From Kiritimatiellales bacterium (GTDB lineage: Bacteria > Patescibacteriota > Gracilibacteria > Peribacterales > Peribacteraceae), in NCBI GenBank assembly GCA_021734665.1, contig JAIPIN010000005.1, forward strand, positions 1-39,868: 39,868 nt of DNA, given 5' to 3'. This document shows positions 4,053-30,148 of this stretch, one piece after another. The notes beneath the pieces are model-generated. The model searched no databases, was not told the origin of the DNA, and saw nothing but the letters and a program-made list of their open reading frames with translations. Position numbers and translations under genes: made by a program. How positions within the stretch are numbered: the stretch's first letter is position 1; each line of letters begins with the position of its first letter.

Positions 4053-5885
4053 ATGAGTATCTACATTATCCTCTTCCTTGCAGGAGTGCTTACGATTCTT
4101 CTGCCTTGTATTCTACCTCTTATTCCAATTGTTCTGGGAGTAAGTATTGCCGGACGGAGTAAGTGGCGTCCACTACTTACTATTCTGGGGATGTTGGTGA
4201 GTTTTGTGGGGTTCACGTTCTTGCTGATTGTCGTCTTAAACCAATTTGTGGAAGTGGCGGATTACATGCGTATTGGAACGTATTACATCCTCTTACTTTT
4301 TGGATTGGGGTTCTTTACGCACAATCGTTTGTTACAATATGGAGGTGCCTTGCTTGGTGCATTCTTCTTTCTTGATAAAGGATTACCATCTGTAGTTGTT
4401 GCAGCACTTATTGGTGTCATTGCAATTCACGTAGGAGGCAAGGTTGCCACTGCGTTACAGAGTGTTGGGACGGACGTACAAACAAAAACGCGTGAAGGAT
4501 TGGGCGAAGCGCATCCGGCTACTGCGTTTATTATGGGATTAACCATGGGCTTGGTTTGGGTGCCCTGCGCAGGACCTGCTCTTGGTTTTGCATTTACACT
4601 TGTGCGTGAGCAACCGGGTCTCATGGCGCTCTTCTCCCTTACTGCATATGGGTTGGGGACAGCCGTTCCGCTCTTGTTGATCGGCTATGGGGGACAGGCC
4701 GCGGTGCATTCCGTACACGTACTCAACAAATACAGTGGCAGAATTAAACAGGTGGCGGGTGTTTTGCTGATTGTGACTGCCATCGCATTCCAGATGAACT
4801 GGTTTATCGGATTACAAACATGGCTGGTCGACAATACGAGTTTTGGAACATTAGGAACTGATCTAGAAGAAAAATTCTTCGGAGAAGATATGCCCGAGGA
4901 GGCGACTATGCCCGATGAGGATATGAAAGATACTTCTTTACCTACAAATAATATGAATCTTCCTACACTGCCTAAGCTTTCACGTGCTCCCGAACTTACA
5001 GGCCTAGGCCCTTGGCACAATTCCGATCCATTTACATTGGAAGAATTAAAAGGAAAAGTTGTTCTAGTAGATTTTTGGACCTATAGCTGTATCAATTGTA
5101 TTCGTACTATTCCTTATCTTCAGGAGTACACAGAAAGATTCAAAGATAAGCCTTTTGTGCTATTGGGAGTGCATTCTCCCGAGTTTGTATTCGAGAAGAG
5201 CGAGAAGAATGTTGCAGATGCTAATAAGCGACTAGGCGTAACTTGGCCAGTTGCACAAGATAATGATTTTGAAACATGGAAGGCCTTTGCAAACCGTTAC
5301 TGGCCTGCAAAGTATTTAATAGATGCAGAAGGATACATCCGTTATACACACTTTGGAGAAGGTGATTACGATGAAACTGATCTAGCCATACAAAGTCTAC
5401 TAAATGAGATTGGTGAGTTGGATGAACAGATGGATGTGGAAGAAGTTGCTACCACTCGTCGTCGAAATCAAACCCCAGAAACATATTTAGGAGAGAGAAG
5501 TTGGAATTCTCTTGGCAATAGCTCAGGATCTCCTACTCAAGAATTAGTATCTTACAAGGCTCCAGCAGATCTCAATCTGCATAGTTACTATCTAGTAGGA
5601 GATTGGCAGATGATGGATAGAGAGCGACAAGTATTAAAGAGTAAAGAGGGAGAAATCCGTATCAAATTCCTAGGATCAGAAATCAATCTAGTTCTAGGGC
5701 CCGAAGAAGGTACTAGTTCATCAAATGTAGACATAGAAGTTGATGGAGAGCATGTCTCATCTTTTAAAGTTGATAGATATGATCTATTTAATCTCTTCAC
5801 AGGAGAATATGGAGAACACGAGGTAATTCTACGGATCACCGGAGAAGGCGTTGCTGGATATGCGTTTACGTTTGGATCTAATTAA
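4053..5885 (+). CDS. CcdA-type transmembrane protein fused to thioredoxin and DipZ-like C-terminal domain (start probably 4053; ORF track gives 4026)
   Basis: CcdA motifs LPCILPLIPIVLG and VPCAGPALG; redoxin VVLVDFWTYSCINCIRTIPYL; C-terminal beta-rich region typical of DipZ. Confidence 0.92.
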   Translation: MSIYIILFLAGVLTILLPCILPLIPIVLGVSIAGRSKWRPLLTILGMLVSFVGFTFLLIVVLNQFVEVADYMRIGTYYILLLFGLGFFTHNRLLQYGGALLGAFFFLDKGLPSVVVAALIGVIAIHVGGKVATALQSVGTDVQTKTREGLGEAHPATAFIMGLTMGLVWVPCAGPALGFAFTLVREQPGLMALFSLTAYGLGTAVPLLLIGYGGQAAVHSVHVLNKYSGRIKQVAGVLLIVTAIAFQMNWFIGLQTWLVDNTSFGTLGTDLEEKFFGEDMPEEATMPDEDMKDTSLPTNNMNLPTLPKLSRAPELTGLGPWHNSDPFTLEELKGKVVLVDFWTYSCINCIRTIPYLQEYTERFKDKPFVLLGVHSPEFVFEKSEKNVADANKRLGVTWPVAQDNDFETWKAFANRYWPAKYLIDAEGYIRYTHFGEGDYDETDLAIQSLLNEIGELDEQMDVEEVATTRRRNQTPETYLGERSWNSLGNSSGSPTQELVSYKAPADLNLHSYYLVGDWQMMDRERQVLKSKEGEIRIKFLGSEINLVLGPEEGTSSSNVDIEVDGEHVSSFKVDRYDLFNLFTGEYGEHEVILRITGEGVAGYAFTFGSN

Positions 5886-5914
5886 CTTGTAGCTTCTAGC
5901 CCCTAGCTTGTAGG
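5884..5914. repeat. Short intergenic word repeat (cttgtagcttctagcccctagcttgtagg)
   Basis: Iterated TAGC/CTAGC words between dipZ-like gene and thyA. Confidence 0.5.
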
Positions 5915-5925
5915 ATAAGTCTCCT

Positions 5926-6825
5926 ATGAGACAATACCTAACACTCCTACAGAAGATTCTCGACGAAGGTGTTCGTAAAGACGATCGTACAGGCACAGGT
6001 ACGCTGAGCTTGTTTGGATATCAGATGCGTTTTGATCTGCAGGAAGGATTTCCGCTTCTTACAACTAAAAAGGTCTACCACCGCGGGATAACACATGAGC
6101 TTTTATGGTTTCTTAAGGGCGATACTAACATTAAATACTTAGTTGATCGCAATGTGCGCATATGGAACGAGTGGCCTTACGAGGGTTACAAGAAAAGTGA
6201 TGAATTTAAAGGCGAGACACTAGACGAGTTTGTAGAAAAGATAAAAGAAGACGATGCATTTGCACAAAAGTGGGGCGACTTGGGTCCTGTATATGGTAAG
6301 CAATGGATCAGGTGGGAAGGAAAAGATGGTAAACACATCAATCAAATTAAGAACGTGATTGAAGAGATCAAAAGTAATCCAACTTCACGGCGTCTTATTG
6401 TAAGTGGCTGGAATGTGTCGGATATTCAGGAGCTCATTCATGGTAAAAGTTCTGCTCCACCTCTTTGTCACACTGTCTTCCAGTTCTATGTGCTCAATGG
6501 AAAGCTTTCATGTCAGCTTTATCAGCGCAGTGCAGATGTATTTCTTGGTGTGCCATTTAACATTGCATCCTACAGTATGCTCACACACATGATTGCACAG
6601 GAATGTGGTTTGGAAGTGGGCGATTTTATTCACACATTTGGTGACGCGCATCTCTACCTTAATCATATGGACCAAGCTATTACACAATTAGAGCGCGAAC
6701 CACGTTCACTGCCTCAGCTCAAGCTCAATCCGGATGTGAAGTCTGTGTTTGATTTTACGTTTGAGGACATTGAGGTGATTAATTATGATCCCTGTCCTGC
6801 TATTAAAGCGCCGATAGCGGTTTAG
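5926..6825 (+). CDS. thyA: Thymidylate synthase
   Basis: [66 protein letters not shown]. Confidence 0.98.
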
Positions 6826-6884
6826 AGTAATAGAATAATGGAATATTGGAATATTAGGGAAAAATGTAGCACAATGATCAACTC

Positions 6885-7244
6885 ATGAAGTCTTTTACTG
6901 ATTTAGAGGCGTGGAAAGAAGCAATGAATTTTGTTGAAGAGGTATACAAAATAACAGCTGATTTTCCGAAATCTGAGCAATATGGGATCACAAATCAGTT
7001 GAGGCGTGCAAGCACAAGTGTTGTTGCGAATATTGCAGAAGGTTTTGGACGATATTCTTATGCTGAGAAAGCACAAAGATATGTAATAGCACGAGGTGAA
7101 TGTTCCGAAGTTAAGGCATTTCTTCTTGTGGCTACTCGAGTGAAGTTAATTTCAAAAGAAGAGATTCATCATTTATTGGAATTGAATGATAAAGTTGGCA
7201 GACTACTTTCAGGACTTATACAATCATCTCGCAATCGTTCCTAA
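6885..7244 (+). CDS. Four-helix-bundle protein (23S rRNA intervening-sequence protein family)
   Basis: FTDLEAWKEAMNFVEEVYKITADFPKSEQYGITNQLRRASTSVVANIAEGFGR is the family signature. Confidence 0.93.
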   Translation: MKSFTDLEAWKEAMNFVEEVYKITADFPKSEQYGITNQLRRASTSVVANIAEGFGRYSYAEKAQRYVIARGECSEVKAFLLVATRVKLISKEEIHHLLELNDKVGRLLSGLIQSSRNRS

Positions 7245-7278
7245 TATTCTATTATTCTAATATTCCAATATTCTTATA

Positions 7279-7764
7279 ATGCACATCTCCCTCGTCGCAG
7301 CGGCATCGGAAAATAACGTCATAGGCAAAGACGGCGGTATTCCTTGGGATTTGCCTGATGACTTTAAGCACTTTCATGATGCAACAGCAGGTAAGCCAAT
7401 TATTATGGGTCGCAAAACTCAAGACTCAATTGGGCGAGTGCTTCCGGGGCGTAGAAATATTGTAGTGACTAGACAGGATATGGAGATAGAAGGATGCGAC
7501 GTAGTACATTCCATAGAAGAGGCTCTGGCGCTTGTAAAAGATGAGCCAGAAGTTGCAGTGATTGGAGGAGGGGAGATTTATAAACAAGCTTTACCACATG
7601 CAAACATCATTGATCTCACTCGTGTACATACAACTATCGAGGATGGGAACGCATTCTTTCCTGAATTCTCGGATGATGAGTGGGAACAAGTATCTGCTGA
7701 GCGACATGAGGCGGATGAGCGACATGCGTTGCCGTTTACTTTCTTGTTGTATAGACGAAAATAA
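7279..7764 (+). CDS. folA: Dihydrofolate reductase
   Basis: ISLVAAASENNVIGKDGGIPWDLPDDFKHF, IIMGRKTQDSIGRVLPGRRNIVVTR, VIGGGEIYKQALP. Confidence 0.97.
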   Translation: MHISLVAAASENNVIGKDGGIPWDLPDDFKHFHDATAGKPIIMGRKTQDSIGRVLPGRRNIVVTRQDMEIEGCDVVHSIEEALALVKDEPEVAVIGGGEIYKQALPHANIIDLTRVHTTIEDGNAFFPEFSDDEWEQVSAERHEADERHALPFTFLLYRRK

Positions 7765-7785
7765 TCGTGATTTGTATTGCGTATG

Positions 7786-7813
7786 AGTTAAGCAGTTGCG
7801 CAACTGCTTAACT
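7786..7813. repeat. Perfect 28-bp palindrome (agttaagcagttgcgcaactgcttaact)
   Basis: Exact self reverse complement read from sequence. Confidence 0.9.
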
Positions 7814-8041
7814 AGTTCAGGCTTTTTATAAACATATATTTGCGCAAATATGTTAATGTTTTTTCTATTATACAAACATTTAACTAAATGTTTATAGGGT
7901 TAAAAAGAAGGGCAAAGTATATATGAAATGATTCTAAGAATGCTCGTATTTTTGCCTTTTGTAAGCCAAAAAGTAAGTGGGATCACACTTTTGTTGGCTC
8001 TTTGATTGTTCAGGATAAATATATCCGTATGCTTAGTGCAC

Positions 8042-8746
8042 ATGGCACTTTCTGAATCAGGATTGGCACACGATATAGTTTATACAAATGCACAAGAAGG
8101 TAACTCTGGTTACAGAGTTTCGGAAGGCATCAAGCGTGTGGCACGCGGGTTAGAAGATGTTCGTAGAGGTGTGCACACTCAGGCTGGAGGAGTAATGCCC
8201 GAGAGCGTGCAAGAATTTGTACGATCACCAGATGCAATTTCTACTATAGATGTACAAGCTGTAGAAACAACACTTAAGAAAACTGCGAGTGATATTCAGT
8301 CGTTAGTTGGTGGGGAAGAGGTTACCGAGCTAGAAGCTGGTGTTGCAGGTCAGGCGTATCAAGGCGTAGTAGGAAGCTCACAGATTGATATAACATCCTC
8401 TATAACTTCGGATGTAGAGGGTGGTTCTATTGTAGATACAACACAGCTTGATGATGTTGTTAAGCATGAGAAGAGGCATGAGGCTCAATCTTCCAGTTGG
8501 AACGCAGAAGAAGTATTAATTGAACAAGGTGGAAGTATCCTTACACTTACGCGCCGAGAGATTTCCGAAGCAGATTCAATGTTGGTTCAATCTACACTCG
8601 AGAATGTATCGGGTGAATATAGAGATATATTCCAGACTGTGACGGGCATTCTTTCTAATGAACAAATACGTTCCGTTGCTGAGTCGGGGGATTTGGCTGG
8701 GTTACAAGCCCAGATGCAAACAACAGCAGATACAACTACTGTTTAA
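8042..8746 (+). CDS. Hypothetical protein (start probably 8042; ORF track gives 8006)
   Basis: Long ORF in a gap between folA and secD; no family recognised. Confidence 0.65.
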   Translation: MALSESGLAHDIVYTNAQEGNSGYRVSEGIKRVARGLEDVRRGVHTQAGGVMPESVQEFVRSPDAISTIDVQAVETTLKKTASDIQSLVGGEEVTELEAGVAGQAYQGVVGSSQIDITSSITSDVEGGSIVDTTQLDDVVKHEKRHEAQSSSWNAEEVLIEQGGSILTLTRREISEADSMLVQSTLENVSGEYRDIFQTVTGILSNEQIRSVAESGDLAGLQAQMQTTADTTTV

Positions 8747-25810: not shown

Positions 25811-28222
25811 TTATTCCCTCAAAAAATCTGGAATAAGAAGAGGCTTCTGCAAGTCTGGAAGTTTTTCTACAAGTTCCAAATCTTCCAGTGCAATTTTACC
25901 CACATACAATCGTTTAAGGTCTCCGCCATTCTCTAGGAATCGTTCAATTGCGCGCAGACCACGGAAGTACACTAGGCTCTTAGTGAATCCTCCATTCTCG
26001 GATGTATCACTTAAACCTCGCTTAATGGCGATAGCTTGAGTAATTGATTTCCCTTCTGAATAGCCAATCTCTTCTTCTAAATAAGCTCTCGTTTCCGCAA
26101 AAGAATGATTAAGACCAAATTCCAGTCCCAATACATTGCGAGGCGGGTTGTATCTACGATCATGATATGGGCTTAATACTTGATTCTGGTTGTAGATTGC
26201 TAACCCCTCCTGAGTATCTAAGTAGTTGGCACATCCTCGTCTTAATAGCGCAAAAGGTTGGTGGTCGCCATTCTCTGCTGTGAGTACATGCGTTTCTATT
26301 TCGTGTGCTATTAGAGATTGGACATGAGAAGGTTCAAAGAGAGCACCTTCGCGCAGATAAATATGCCGTCCGCCTACCGTGCAATCTGCCACCAGACGTT
26401 TACGCACTGCCACTTCCCATCCGTCCAAGACATAGTGTTCCAAGATCTCTTCGAACATCTTTTTTACGCGATCAGTAGAGAGTAGCGATTTTTGTGGTGG
26501 TGGCAATTCACATGCTTCCCTATGGTGCAGAGTTGCTTCGGCTGCACGTAAGATAGAAGAAGACGGTTGCCCGTATAGATTCTTGGAAGCTTGAGTAAAG
26601 GTTTCGGCATTTCCACGGGATTTAAGTAATTCAATTCGAGCCAAAAGTTCAATTCTTTTCTTTTCCAGTAATTGTCCGAGTGTGGAATCGTCTTGGATAG
26701 GCTGGTCCAGTTTTTTCTTGGCATCTTCTAGATTTATATTAGTTTCAGGATAATAGAAATTTGGGTTGTACTGGCGGTTTTCTTTGATTCTTTCGCGCTC
26801 CTCTTCTAGGTTAATAGGCTTTAGGAATTTTATTAGTAGCAACTCACGATCCATTGTTGAAAGCATGTTATCTACTGCACGTAGATCTACTTTTACAGAT
26901 GATTGCTTAATTGATTCAGATGCTTTTTTTGATGGATCGATCAAAAAGTCAGATAGATCTCTTTTGCCAATCACAGCTTGAACATCTTTGGTGCGAATTT
27001 CTTCTTTTGATACAAGTGTTTGAATTTTTTTCCCACCAAGTGTGAATTTTACGCGATATGTTTGGTTTGTTTTATCTTTTGCTTCCAATGCATCTTTTTC
27101 TATTAGCTTATCTATTAGTTCAGGAGAAAATATTGTGCTTTCTTTACTAGCTGCAATACGACATGGGACTTCTATAGTTGATCCTGCGCCTGTTATATAA
27201 ATAGTTTCATTCGTTCCCAATACAGGCTTGTCACCTTTTGATGTCGATTCTGTTTTCTTAACCTTTTCTCCAAATAGATCCTGACTCATGCGAACACCTT
27301 TCTCTGGTGAACTAACTTTAAGACCTTGTACACGTTCCAGTCTTGCGCGCAGTGGTGCAAGGTTCGCTAGCTGTACCATAAGCCCAGCGCGCGCATTTAC
27401 TTCCAAAAGAGCGGGCCCCATTTGTTCATCAATTGTCAGATCTACAGCTAAATATCCAATATTAGTAATTTGCTGAATGCGTGAACAAATCAAAAGAATT
27501 TCGTCCCAAAAAGGTATCTTTATTCCAGATGGAGATCCTCCATGTGGAAGGGTTTTTATAAGAGAATGGAATTGGGCTGCATGAGTGGTAACACCTTTTG
27601 CAATATCGATTCCTATTCCTATACCGCCAAGATGCACGTTCCCTTTGCCTTCACTCTCTTTGGTTGGAACTCTTAGCATTGCCATTACGGGAACCAGATT
27701 AAAAACAATCACACGGATATCTGGTAATCCAGCAGGTCTGAAACGAGCGAAGCAATCATGCTGAATAAGAATCTGCTCAAAGAATGCAGTATCTAGACGA
27801 CCTCCAAGGGAAAATTTCCCATCCAGAACATCTTCTATGTGTTCTTCTAGTTCACGATTTGTAATTGGATATTTACCTTGTTTTAAGAAGTTGCCATTTT
27901 TATCTCGCCCTTTTAGAACAATAATTCCTTCTCCTCCAAATCCGAAGTTCGGTTTTAGAACACATTCGTCAGGAAGTTTTTTGAAATCAAATTGTCGTAA
28001 TTGTTCGCGTGTTTCTATGCGAGCAAAAATCTTAGCTGCGGGGATTCCTCTGGTTGCAAGATATGCTTTTGTCTTCAACTTATTGTCTGCTAATGCTGTA
28101 GCTTTCTTGGGGTTAAATGGCTTCACATATAGAAGATTGCGAGCGTTGATTCCTAGGATGCCGGAGTTAAGGAATTGCTTGAGCATATAAAAGGGTTGGG
28201 GCTTGGGTTTGGGCTGGGCCAA
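25811..28222 (-). CDS. Fusion: alpha-L-glutamate-ligase-like ATP-grasp + RimK-associated retropepsin-like domain + DUF1704/QEGLA (MATCAP-like) metallocarboxypeptidase; start may be 28186
   Basis: ATP-grasp: NLLYVKPFNPKKATALADNKLKTKAYLATRGIP, CVLKPNFGFGGEGIIVL, LPDIRVIVFNLVPVMAMLRVPTKESEGKGNVHLGGIGIGIDIAKG, LLEVNARAG. Retropepsin-like: VKFTLGGKKIQTLVSKEE..DVQAVIGKRDLSDFLIDPSK. DUF1704: LIAHEIETHVLT (HExxxH, 26288-26305) and DTQEGLAIY. Confidence 0.93.
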   Translation of the reverse strand: MAQPKPKPQPFYMLKQFLNSGILGINARNLLYVKPFNPKKATALADNKLKTKAYLATRGIPAAKIFARIETREQLRQFDFKKLPDECVLKPNFGFGGEGIIVLKGRDKNGNFLKQGKYPITNRELEEHIEDVLDGKFSLGGRLDTAFFEQILIQHDCFARFRPAGLPDIRVIVFNLVPVMAMLRVPTKESEGKGNVHLGGIGIGIDIAKGVTTHAAQFHSLIKTLPHGGSPSGIKIPFWDEILLICSRIQQITNIGYLAVDLTIDEQMGPALLEVNARAGLMVQLANLAPLRARLERVQGLKVSSPEKGVRMSQDLFGEKVKKTESTSKGDKPVLGTNETIYITGAGSTIEVPCRIAASKESTIFSPELIDKLIEKDALEAKDKTNQTYRVKFTLGGKKIQTLVSKEEIRTKDVQAVIGKRDLSDFLIDPSKKASESIKQSSVKVDLRAVDNMLSTMDRELLLIKFLKPINLEEERERIKENRQYNPNFYYPETNINLEDAKKKLDQPIQDDSTLGQLLEKKRIELLARIELLKSRGNAETFTQASKNLYGQPSSSILRAAEATLHHREACELPPPQKSLLSTDRVKKMFEEILEHYVLDGWEVAVRKRLVADCTVGGRHIYLREGALFEPSHVQSLIAHEIETHVLTAENGDHQPFALLRRGCANYLDTQEGLAIYNQNQVLSPYHDRRYNPPRNVLGLEFGLNHSFAETRAYLEEEIGYSEGKSITQAIAIKRGLSDTSENGGFTKSLVYFRGLRAIERFLENGGDLKRLYVGKIALEDLELVEKLPDLQKPLLIPDFLRE

Positions 28223-28247
28223 ATCCTAGCCCTAGCCCTAGCCCTAT
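28192..28247. repeat. Word-repeat hairpin (gggcttgggtttgggctggg / ccctagccctagcccta)
   Basis: Arms of iterated GGGCT(T/A)G; overlaps the apparent N-terminus MAQPKPKPQP of the minus-strand fusion gene. Confidence 0.7.
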
Positions 28248-29734
28248 TCTTCCTGTAAATGACTAAACACCTCGCGGAACCTGAAGTATTCAACCAGTCT
28301 TAGTCCTGTCCATCTACCTAGCCCGATATCTACCAAAATAGTAAGAAGTATGATTTCTGGATATGCCAAGAGAACTGATTGCAATGCAGCCCAAGAGACT
28401 ATGAATACACAGATTAGTGCAGCAAGAATTGTTTCTCCAATTCCTATAACAGCACTAACAAGTCCTTCTTCAGTTTTTACTGCGAGGAAACTTTCCGACA
28501 ATGTAGACATGATCAGAAGAATAAAGATCGTGTCACGACCAAATGTAATATTAAATGACGCACCGATGCCAAGCAAAAGTAGCAGAGTTATACTTACTAC
28601 GGTTAACATGATTGCAACTTTTGGAACGTACAAAAGTCTCCATTTGCGCAGTAGTGCACGTGTCACATAACTTGTTATTAAAATGAATAGCAAGAAGGCT
28701 AGGCCCAATGTCCAACCAAGTGCCAAAAAGCTCAAGGCAACTACAGAAGGCGTGTAGAGTCCGAATGTAGTAATACCGATAACTTGTTTAAAGAAAGCCA
28801 AAATCATGGCAATGATTGGCAGAGTTAGTAGCAAGATAACAATCTGACTAGATACACCGTGTGTCAGCATGAAGTTCACAAGAGAGGAGAGTAAATTCCA
28901 TGGACGTATAACACCTGAAGATTCATCGACTACAAGAAAATCAATATCACGTTGTTCTATATCTGTTAGAAATGTGTCTGTATCAACTGCAGAAATCAGT
29001 GGATTAATAGCTTCCTTTCTGGTGATTACAATTCGATCTGGTTTGAGTACTGAGAAAGGTCCACGTGCAGTTCTCGCAAGAGTGTTAAGGCTGCTATCGG
29101 TAATAATCACAATGTTTTGATTTTCTATTCCTGCGAGTCGTGTTGGGTCGGCTTCTACTGCTCGTGTGAGAGCTTGTAATCCAGTGATACCATCAGTCCA
29201 AAGTACAATGGATTGAGCACCTGGCAGAGCAGTACTTTGTTCCGAAATTATATTGAATAGTGCTTCCTCTGAGCTTACGGGAAGGGTTGGACCTACAGGT
29301 TGTACAATGCGTAGATAAACTCCCTCATTTGCTGCCGTTTGTTGGTGAATTTGTAGCTTCTCTCGTTCTATATAACTATCAGCAATTATTGCTATTTTGC
29401 GTTCATATACAGTAATCATGCGCTGTGTTTCTGATTCTTGTACTTCGCCATCAATATCAGTTCGTACCACAAGTCGGACCACAATTGCATCTACAGATTC
29501 GGGTGTATATACAACTTCTACTGTTCGACTTATGGGTTGAGCAATTCCTTCAATGTACCATCTGTATTCTGTGTTCCCCCCCAACCCTTTACTAGAAGAT
29601 CCGTCCAACACAAGTGTACGGCCAACCATTATTTCTTCTGGTCCGGAGATAACAGGTGTTAGTGGTTCTGTGCCCTGAGCTAGGGCAACAGTTGCGCTTG
29701 TGAACAGCGCGCTAATGAATAATAAGATTCGCAT
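28244..29734 (-). CDS. 7TM protein of the kind usually fused to inactive transglutaminase, here with a PKD-like N-terminal ectodomain
   Basis: Signal peptide; PEEIMVGRTLVLDGSSSKGLGGNTEYRWYIEG PKD-like; C-terminal FKQVIGITTFGLYTPSVVALSFLALGWTLGLAFLLFILITSYVTRALLRKWRLLYVPKVAIMLTVVSITLLLLLGIG and following TM helices. Confidence 0.82.
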   Translation of the reverse strand: MRILLFISALFTSATVALAQGTEPLTPVISGPEEIMVGRTLVLDGSSSKGLGGNTEYRWYIEGIAQPISRTVEVVYTPESVDAIVVRLVVRTDIDGEVQESETQRMITVYERKIAIIADSYIEREKLQIHQQTAANEGVYLRIVQPVGPTLPVSSEEALFNIISEQSTALPGAQSIVLWTDGITGLQALTRAVEADPTRLAGIENQNIVIITDSSLNTLARTARGPFSVLKPDRIVITRKEAINPLISAVDTDTFLTDIEQRDIDFLVVDESSGVIRPWNLLSSLVNFMLTHGVSSQIVILLLTLPIIAMILAFFKQVIGITTFGLYTPSVVALSFLALGWTLGLAFLLFILITSYVTRALLRKWRLLYVPKVAIMLTVVSITLLLLLGIGASFNITFGRDTIFILLIMSTLSESFLAVKTEEGLVSAVIGIGETILAALICVFIVSWAALQSVLLAYPEIILLTILVDIGLGRWTGLRLVEYFRFREVFSHLQEE

Positions 29735-29757: not shown

Positions 29758-29820
29758 TGGCTATTAGCAGTTAGCAAATTGGCTAATTAGCTAATTGCTA
29801 ACGAGCTAATTGCTATTTAG
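29758..29820. repeat. Word-repeat hairpin (TTAGCTAAT-type words)
   Basis: ttggctattagcagttagcaaattggctaattagctaattgctaacgagctaattgc. Confidence 0.65.
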
Positions 29821-30148
29821 GCATTTTGCCGAGCGCTCTTTTCAAGCTCTTATCCTTGTATTTTTTAATCTGTGGCTCAAGTTTTTCTACACAACGATCT
29901 ACAGCAATCAAAGGATCAACTCGACGCGACTCTGCTCGTAGTATTTTTTTAGGAAGTTCAACAGTGACTGTCACTTTCATTTGATCATTACCTTTCTTGG
30001 TACTTCGATTATTGGCTTCTATGCGGATTACAGAACTATCGTCTTTAACTTTTTTGCAATACGTCGCCAATTTTCCGACTTTGGATGCCATTAATAAGCG
30101 TTGTGCATCCGAGAATTCAAAGCCTTTTTCGAAGTGTTGAATGTTCAT
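29813..30148 (-). CDS. Ribosome hibernation promoting factor / RaiA family
   Basis: FEKGFEFSDAQRLLMASKVGKLATY, VTVELPKKILRAESRRVDPLIAVDRCVEKLEPQIKKYKDK. Confidence 0.82.
   Translation of the reverse strand: MNIQHFEKGFEFSDAQRLLMASKVGKLATYCKKVKDDSSVIRIEANNRSTKKGNDQMKVTVTVELPKKILRAESRRVDPLIAVDRCVEKLEPQIKKYKDKSLKRALGKMPK

Follow-up and report, generated by a model that had tools for sequence, protein, structure and literature searches.

A three-domain fusion of an ATP-grasp amidoligase, a degenerate retropepsin and a MATCAP-type metallopeptidase in Patescibacteria

Losing all three RloA retropepsins harms Pseudomonas aeruginosa, and deletion of rloB or rloC suppresses the hypo-osmotic growth defect of the rloA triple mutant, indicating that RloB and RloC oppose the action of RloA, a protease that cleaves poly-Glu (PMC12239564). 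Cell shape, biofilm and osmotic tolerance of Pseudomonas are all influenced by the rlo system. The retropepsin RimB trims poly-Glu from RpsF and additionally stimulates RimK approximately fourfold (PMC11957791), so that a retropepsin can be kept for a non-proteolytic role. The human MATCAP/TMCP enzymes TMCP1 and TMCP2 take polyglutamylation off tubulin (PMC10499314). In the literature searched, we found neither biochemical work on RloC ligases or bacterial QEGLA proteins nor a substrate for bacterial QEGLA/DUF1704 proteins. Among open-licence papers, none combined DUF1704 or Peregrinibacteria with ATP-grasp, and none described the fusion reported here, although an earlier mention elsewhere is possible.

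The window, by which we mean the whole analysed stretch of 39,868 nucleotides, contains an ORF at 25811..28222 on the (-) strand, on which the domains and the partner gene described below also lie. Counted from TTG, the ORF encodes 803 amino acids and contains all motifs quoted in the original prediction. The natural protein is probably 791 amino acids long because the majority of homologues start around residue 13, where an ATG (28186) is the probable start codon. Profile searches and fold comparison gave the domain order ATP-grasp amidoligase, retropepsin-derived domain, MATCAP/QEGLA metallopeptidase; two of the three domains on the chain, the ligase and the metallopeptidase, are conserved as catalytic domains. 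The full-length AlphaFold model had a pLDDT of 85 and a pTM of 0.50, the latter too low to place the domains relative to each other. The ORF is real and conserved, and a chance ORF, an ORF artefact or a misassembly is ruled out by the occurrence of the fusion at 37 loci in separate genomes and by 80 loci in a scan of named genomes.

The 37 fused loci were found among 114 ligase loci classified in a sample of 380 Patescibacteria genomes, a survey of domain architectures that the original prediction had proposed. Most non-fused loci encode a ligase plus retropepsin protein of about 430-510 amino acids, some of them with a separate QEGLA gene. The 80 named loci are nearly all labelled Peregrinibacteria, Peribacteria, Gracilibacteria or Patescibacteria, the remainder being a few unnamed bacteria and one genome labelled Nitrospirota. 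Matches at these loci span nearly the whole protein, except at contig ends and in L125, where the frame is split; the nearest named relative (L102) shares 87% identity. The fusion frame is also split in L068 (G106) at 5626-8152, giving two overlapping ORFs of 623 and 310 amino acids, either by a frameshift or by an assembly error. No relative was found in the viral contigs searched, and promoter and terminator scans returned no more sites than in shuffled sequences.

The ligase domain (27266..28186, residues 13-319) is RloC/TIGR02291-like and was recognised by Pfam, NCBIfam and Foldseek. PF14397 (ATPgrasp_ST) matched residues 28-299 with an E-value of 3.9e-58 and 197 bits against a cut-off of 31.4, covering positions 2-277 of 278. 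The match to TIGR02291 over residues 13-319 (E 5.5e-72) reached 242.4 bits and stayed below the curated cut-off of 314.2, which places the ligase as a relative outside the equivalog. Nine residues (K90, E149, D168, R170, R184, D261, E274, N276 and R278), whose roles in ATP/Mg and substrate binding are assigned from the family only, were invariant in 40/40 fused homologues. The full-length model matched the glutamate-handling ligases ArgX, LysX and RimK in Foldseek (E about 1e-7), and glutamate would, by family membership only, be the amino acid added.

The metallocarboxypeptidase domain of the MATCAP/QEGLA (DUF1704) family (25817..26872, residues 451-802) was identified by PF08014, TIGR02421 and Foldseek. 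PF08014 covered residues 480-789 (E 3.4e-51, 174.8 bits against a cut-off of 27), and both this match and the one to PF14397 bear out the original assignment of a ligase and a DUF1704 carboxypeptidase to one chain. TIGR02421 (QEGLA) matched residues 451-802 (E 2.6e-58), and its 198 bits fell short of the curated cut-off of 338.65, so that this domain, too, is a relative outside the equivalog. Conservation points to a metal-binding and catalytic role of the HEIETH motif (26288..26305, residues 640-645), of which H640, E641 and H645 were invariant in all 40 fused homologues, as was E672 in the TQEGLA motif (26198..26215, residues 670-675). TQEGLA aligns with TEEGLA of human MATCAP, and E672 is probably the third metal ligand. 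The best Foldseek match of the full-length model was human MATCAP (7z5g, E 2e-10). The original prediction had described ligase, retropepsin and peptidase as separate neighbouring genes in proteobacteria. This description holds for ligase and retropepsin, which adjoin each other and a 7TM gene, but the QEGLA genes examined lie elsewhere or beside a GshB-like ATP-grasp gene. On a Rhizobium gallicum plasmid (L202:3754-7571), ORFs resembling N-formylglutamate amidohydrolase, QEGLA and GshB-like ATP-grasp proteins, as judged by eye and from relatives, stand in a row. A Rhizobium tblastn match to residues 301-801 was rejected as an instance of the same fusion because, by eye from the translations, the QEGLA ORF lies between separate amidohydrolase-like and ATP-grasp-like ORFs.

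The fusion is the second gene of a two-gene unit. Its operon partner, which does not appear in the original prediction, encodes an RloB-like membrane protein (28244..29734) and lies 21 bp upstream on the same strand. This protein has a signal-like N-terminus, a weak PKD-like ectodomain and a PF14402 7TM domain (28268-28855; 82 bits against a cut-off of 25); PF14400, the inactive transglutaminase domain present in Legionella RloB, did not match it. A 7TM gene adjoins the ligase on the same strand within a few hundred bases at 104 of 115 ligase ORFs and is present at 73/80 named loci. Loci without an adjoining 7TM gene are mostly short contigs or N-terminal frame extensions, and in G335 and G369 the gene is located in another part of the genome. 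The 7TM gene and the ligase are the gene pair rloB-rloC. The RloB-like proteins of the window and of L063:3456-4982 have PKD-like ectodomains instead of the inactive transglutaminase domain, and many RloB-like relatives consist of the 7TM part only (about 220 amino acids). Three tandem GGGCTA units lie between the stop codon of the 7TM gene and the start of the fusion (28226-28245). An HPF/S30AE-like gene (29813-30148) is found upstream of the 7TM gene; it was rejected as a core part of the system since it is restricted to the Peribacteria-type loci, 26 of the 80 named ones. Unfused loci often carry one or two extra ATP-grasp genes, cyanophycin-synthetase-like or of the RimK family, adjoining the ligase-retropepsin gene (L061:7057-8052, L047:6910-7902, L040:7000-7959, L044:4013-4939, L185:6730-7659), which suggests multi-ligase clusters. 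At L048:4411-7176 (G076), a 922-amino-acid chain joins the ligase and a retropepsin with intact DTG to a second ATP-grasp domain (PF02655), and a QEGLA gene lies beside it on the opposite strand; judged by its length of 856 amino acids, L164:3212-5779 (G258) is possibly similar.

Between ligase and metallopeptidase, where the Pfam and NCBIfam scan of the window protein returned no match, lies a degenerate domain (26921..27229, residues ~332-434) that is, by profile alignment and predicted fold, a retropepsin by descent. This conclusion relies on three observations: hhalign aligned a profile of 35 fused-type middle domains to their DTG-bearing counterparts in unfused relatives (99.7%, E 2e-25); four of seven unfused relatives scanned exceeded the PF05618 cut-off (L032, L033, L037, L048); and the best PDB match of the middle-domain model (pLDDT 87) in Foldseek was the retropepsin RloA (9g58, E 6e-5, probability 1.00). 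A sequence search of the PDB with the degenerate middle-domain profile A3 returned nothing. Thereby, the retropepsin homology claimed in the original prediction is upheld, whereas the loss of the active site had been overlooked, and of the profiles it expected, TIGR02291, PF14397 and PF08014 matched but PF05618 did not match the window protein. The catalytic DTG is replaced by AAS (27146..27154, residues 357-359), and both the flap segment and the Arg of the RPxV motif are missing. Among the 37 fusions, the catalytic Asp is missing in 18, D[T/S]G is intact in four, the flap Gly is deleted in 36 and the RPxV Arg is found in none, compared to 67/72 of the loci set against them. The Asp position drifts freely in the same 40 homologues in which the ligase and metallopeptidase residues are invariant, and the GxRDL..LIDP core of the domain is conserved. 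When pairs of equal ligase identity are compared, the middle domains of fusions show lower identity than those of unfused pairs across most of the range, a modest sign of relaxed constraint. The middle domain is therefore very probably a pseudo-protease.

We consider it somewhat probable that the fusion works in the cytosol as a single-chain enzyme for amino-acid tagging, of the Rlo/Rim type, in which the metallopeptidase trims the product and the retropepsin, a former eraser, now has a structural or activating function. The N-terminal ATP-grasp domain would activate a carboxylate with ATP and join glutamate, or a different amino acid, to an acceptor connected with the 7TM RloB-like protein, and the C-terminal MATCAP/QEGLA domain would remove C-terminal residues from the product of this ligase. 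The central retropepsin may represent the ancestral eraser that was lost when its role was taken by the cis-fused metallocarboxypeptidase, and its remnant may stay on the ligase as a scaffold or activator. Taken together, the genetics of RloA, the dual role of RimB and the deglutamylation by TMCPs support a glutamate-adding ligase, a lost aspartic eraser and a metallocarboxypeptidase as replacement. The idea of a writer and an eraser on one chain is supported indirectly, by analogy to the suppression of the rloA-null phenotype in Pseudomonas and to tubulin deglutamylation by MATCAP/TMCP. We put forward only tentatively the wider proposal of reversible peptide tagging by one chain, in which the ATP-grasp domain writes, the cis-fused MATCAP-type metallocarboxypeptidase erases and an aspartic-protease eraser has been displaced in about three lineages.

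Alternatively, the metallocarboxypeptidase might expose the C-terminus of an acceptor to which the ligase then adds a residue, resulting in sequential biosynthesis of a modified peptide, an envelope component or a metabolite instead of a reversible cycle. Such a sequence of steps would fit the QEGLA genes that adjoin other ATP-grasp ligases in biosynthetic-looking clusters, as in Rhizobium, and the second ATP-grasp gene beside the ligase at several unfused Patescibacteria loci. However, the set of ligase, retropepsin and 7TM protein matches rloABC, whose genetics indicates opposing action (PMC12239564), and the loss of the catalytic Asp tracks close linkage of the metallopeptidase, which fits the replacement of an eraser better than the acquisition of a new upstream step. 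We regard processing followed by ligation as unlikely.

The pattern of Asp loss also bears on the question whether the retropepsin decayed by drift in one class, independently of QEGLA, with the fusion being a convenience of co-expression and the peptidase acting on an unrelated substrate. Among the ligase loci of Patescibacteria, D[T/S]G persists in 52/52 cases where the retrieved stretch has no QEGLA gene and in 17/17 where QEGLA is farther away or on the opposite strand, that is in all 69 loci without directly linked QEGLA, which argues against unrelated decay. Where QEGLA lies directly downstream, the motif is kept in three of eight loci (DTG in G020, G021 and G022), and the Asp is changed to Asn in the other five. 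With three adjacent loci and four fusions keeping the motif, the link between Asp loss and QEGLA proximity is not absolute, and these exceptions favour independent decay, as does the somewhat faster divergence of the middle domain in fusions at equal ligase divergence. Fisher's exact test for retention of D[T/S]G versus QEGLA linkage gave a p-value of 5e-19, which ignores relatedness. The ligase-domain tree contains two changes to fusion plus one separate lineage with adjacent QEGLA, and the loci with Asn (G047, G208, G302, G344, G378) group in a single supported clade that excludes the fusions. Asp loss occurred in approximately three independent lineages, which provide too few pairs for significance in an independent-pairs sign test, and this small number of events is a further point in favour of drift. 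In contrast, the f48/f137 lineage, which branches separately in the tree, has Asn in place of Asp exclusively at loci whose QEGLA gene follows directly downstream. Searches of 79 genomes of the class and of the own genome of the window (~83% complete) found no PF05618 retropepsin, indicating that no retropepsin acting in trans is seen to stand in. Decay unrelated to QEGLA appears rather improbable to us. That the middle domain is a working aspartic peptidase with a non-canonical active site, making three enzymes per chain, is highly improbable despite the retained retropepsin fold (pLDDT 87) and the conserved GxRDL..LIDP core, as the Asp is absent in 18/37 fusions, the flap in 36/37 and the RPxV Arg in all, and as RloA D48A and D48N, used as catalytically inactive controls (PMC12239564), and RimB D31E (PMC11957791) are inactive.

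If reversible tagging by one chain is true, the MATCAP family would originally have served to reverse amino-acid additions made by ATP-grasp enzymes, well before there was a tubulin code, and the fusion suggests that the tubulin-tail carboxypeptidases may have originated in bacterial ligase/peptidase pairs. With its dead eraser in the middle, the fusion would be a Rosetta-stone link between the substrate questions of QEGLA/DUF1704 and of the rlo system, both of which become testable with one soluble protein. Replacement of the eraser would also be a case in which parallel lineages have substituted one class of proteases for another.

Compared with known systems, the tubulin tyrosine ligase/detyrosinase cycle follows a like logic of ATP-dependent ligase versus metallocarboxypeptidase, but it consists of separate eukaryotic proteins and serves as an analogy only. 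Human MATCAP/TMCP (KIAA0895L, KIAA0895) belong to the same PF08014 family, with HExxxH and EGLA aligned and the best fold match, whereas they carry no ligase on the chain and act on tubulin tails. The proteobacterial QEGLA/TIGR02421 'flavohemoglobin expression-modulating' proteins are of the same peptidase family, and the one in Rhizobium lies beside an ATP-grasp gene; in contrast to the fusion, they are fused to or located beside N-formylglutamate amidohydrolase and GshB-like ATP-grasp proteins, the RloC ligase not being their partner. In the RimK/RimB system, an ATP-grasp (poly)glutamyl ligase is accompanied by a retropepsin that trims its product and stimulates it; in the own genome of the window, no canonical RimK reached the cut-off. 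The RimBK hybrid provides a precedent for a ligase-retropepsin fusion, with an active retropepsin N-terminal to RimK, whereas in the fusion the retropepsin comes after a ligase of a different subfamily, is inactive in most of the class and is followed by a metallopeptidase. With rloABC of Pseudomonas aeruginosa, also present on a Legionella adelaidensis plasmid in the order retropepsin, inactive-transglutaminase 7TM protein, ligase, the fusion shares the PF14397/TIGR02291-like ligase family, the adjoining PF14402 7TM_transglut partner and a retropepsin component. RloA, however, is a separate, secreted and active protease, whereas the retropepsin of the fusion is dead and would reside on the same side of the membrane as the ligase; RloB has an inactive transglutaminase domain, whereas PF14400 is unmatched in the 7TM partner of the fusion; and rloABC lacks the MATCAP-type metallopeptidase that the fusion adds to the same chain.
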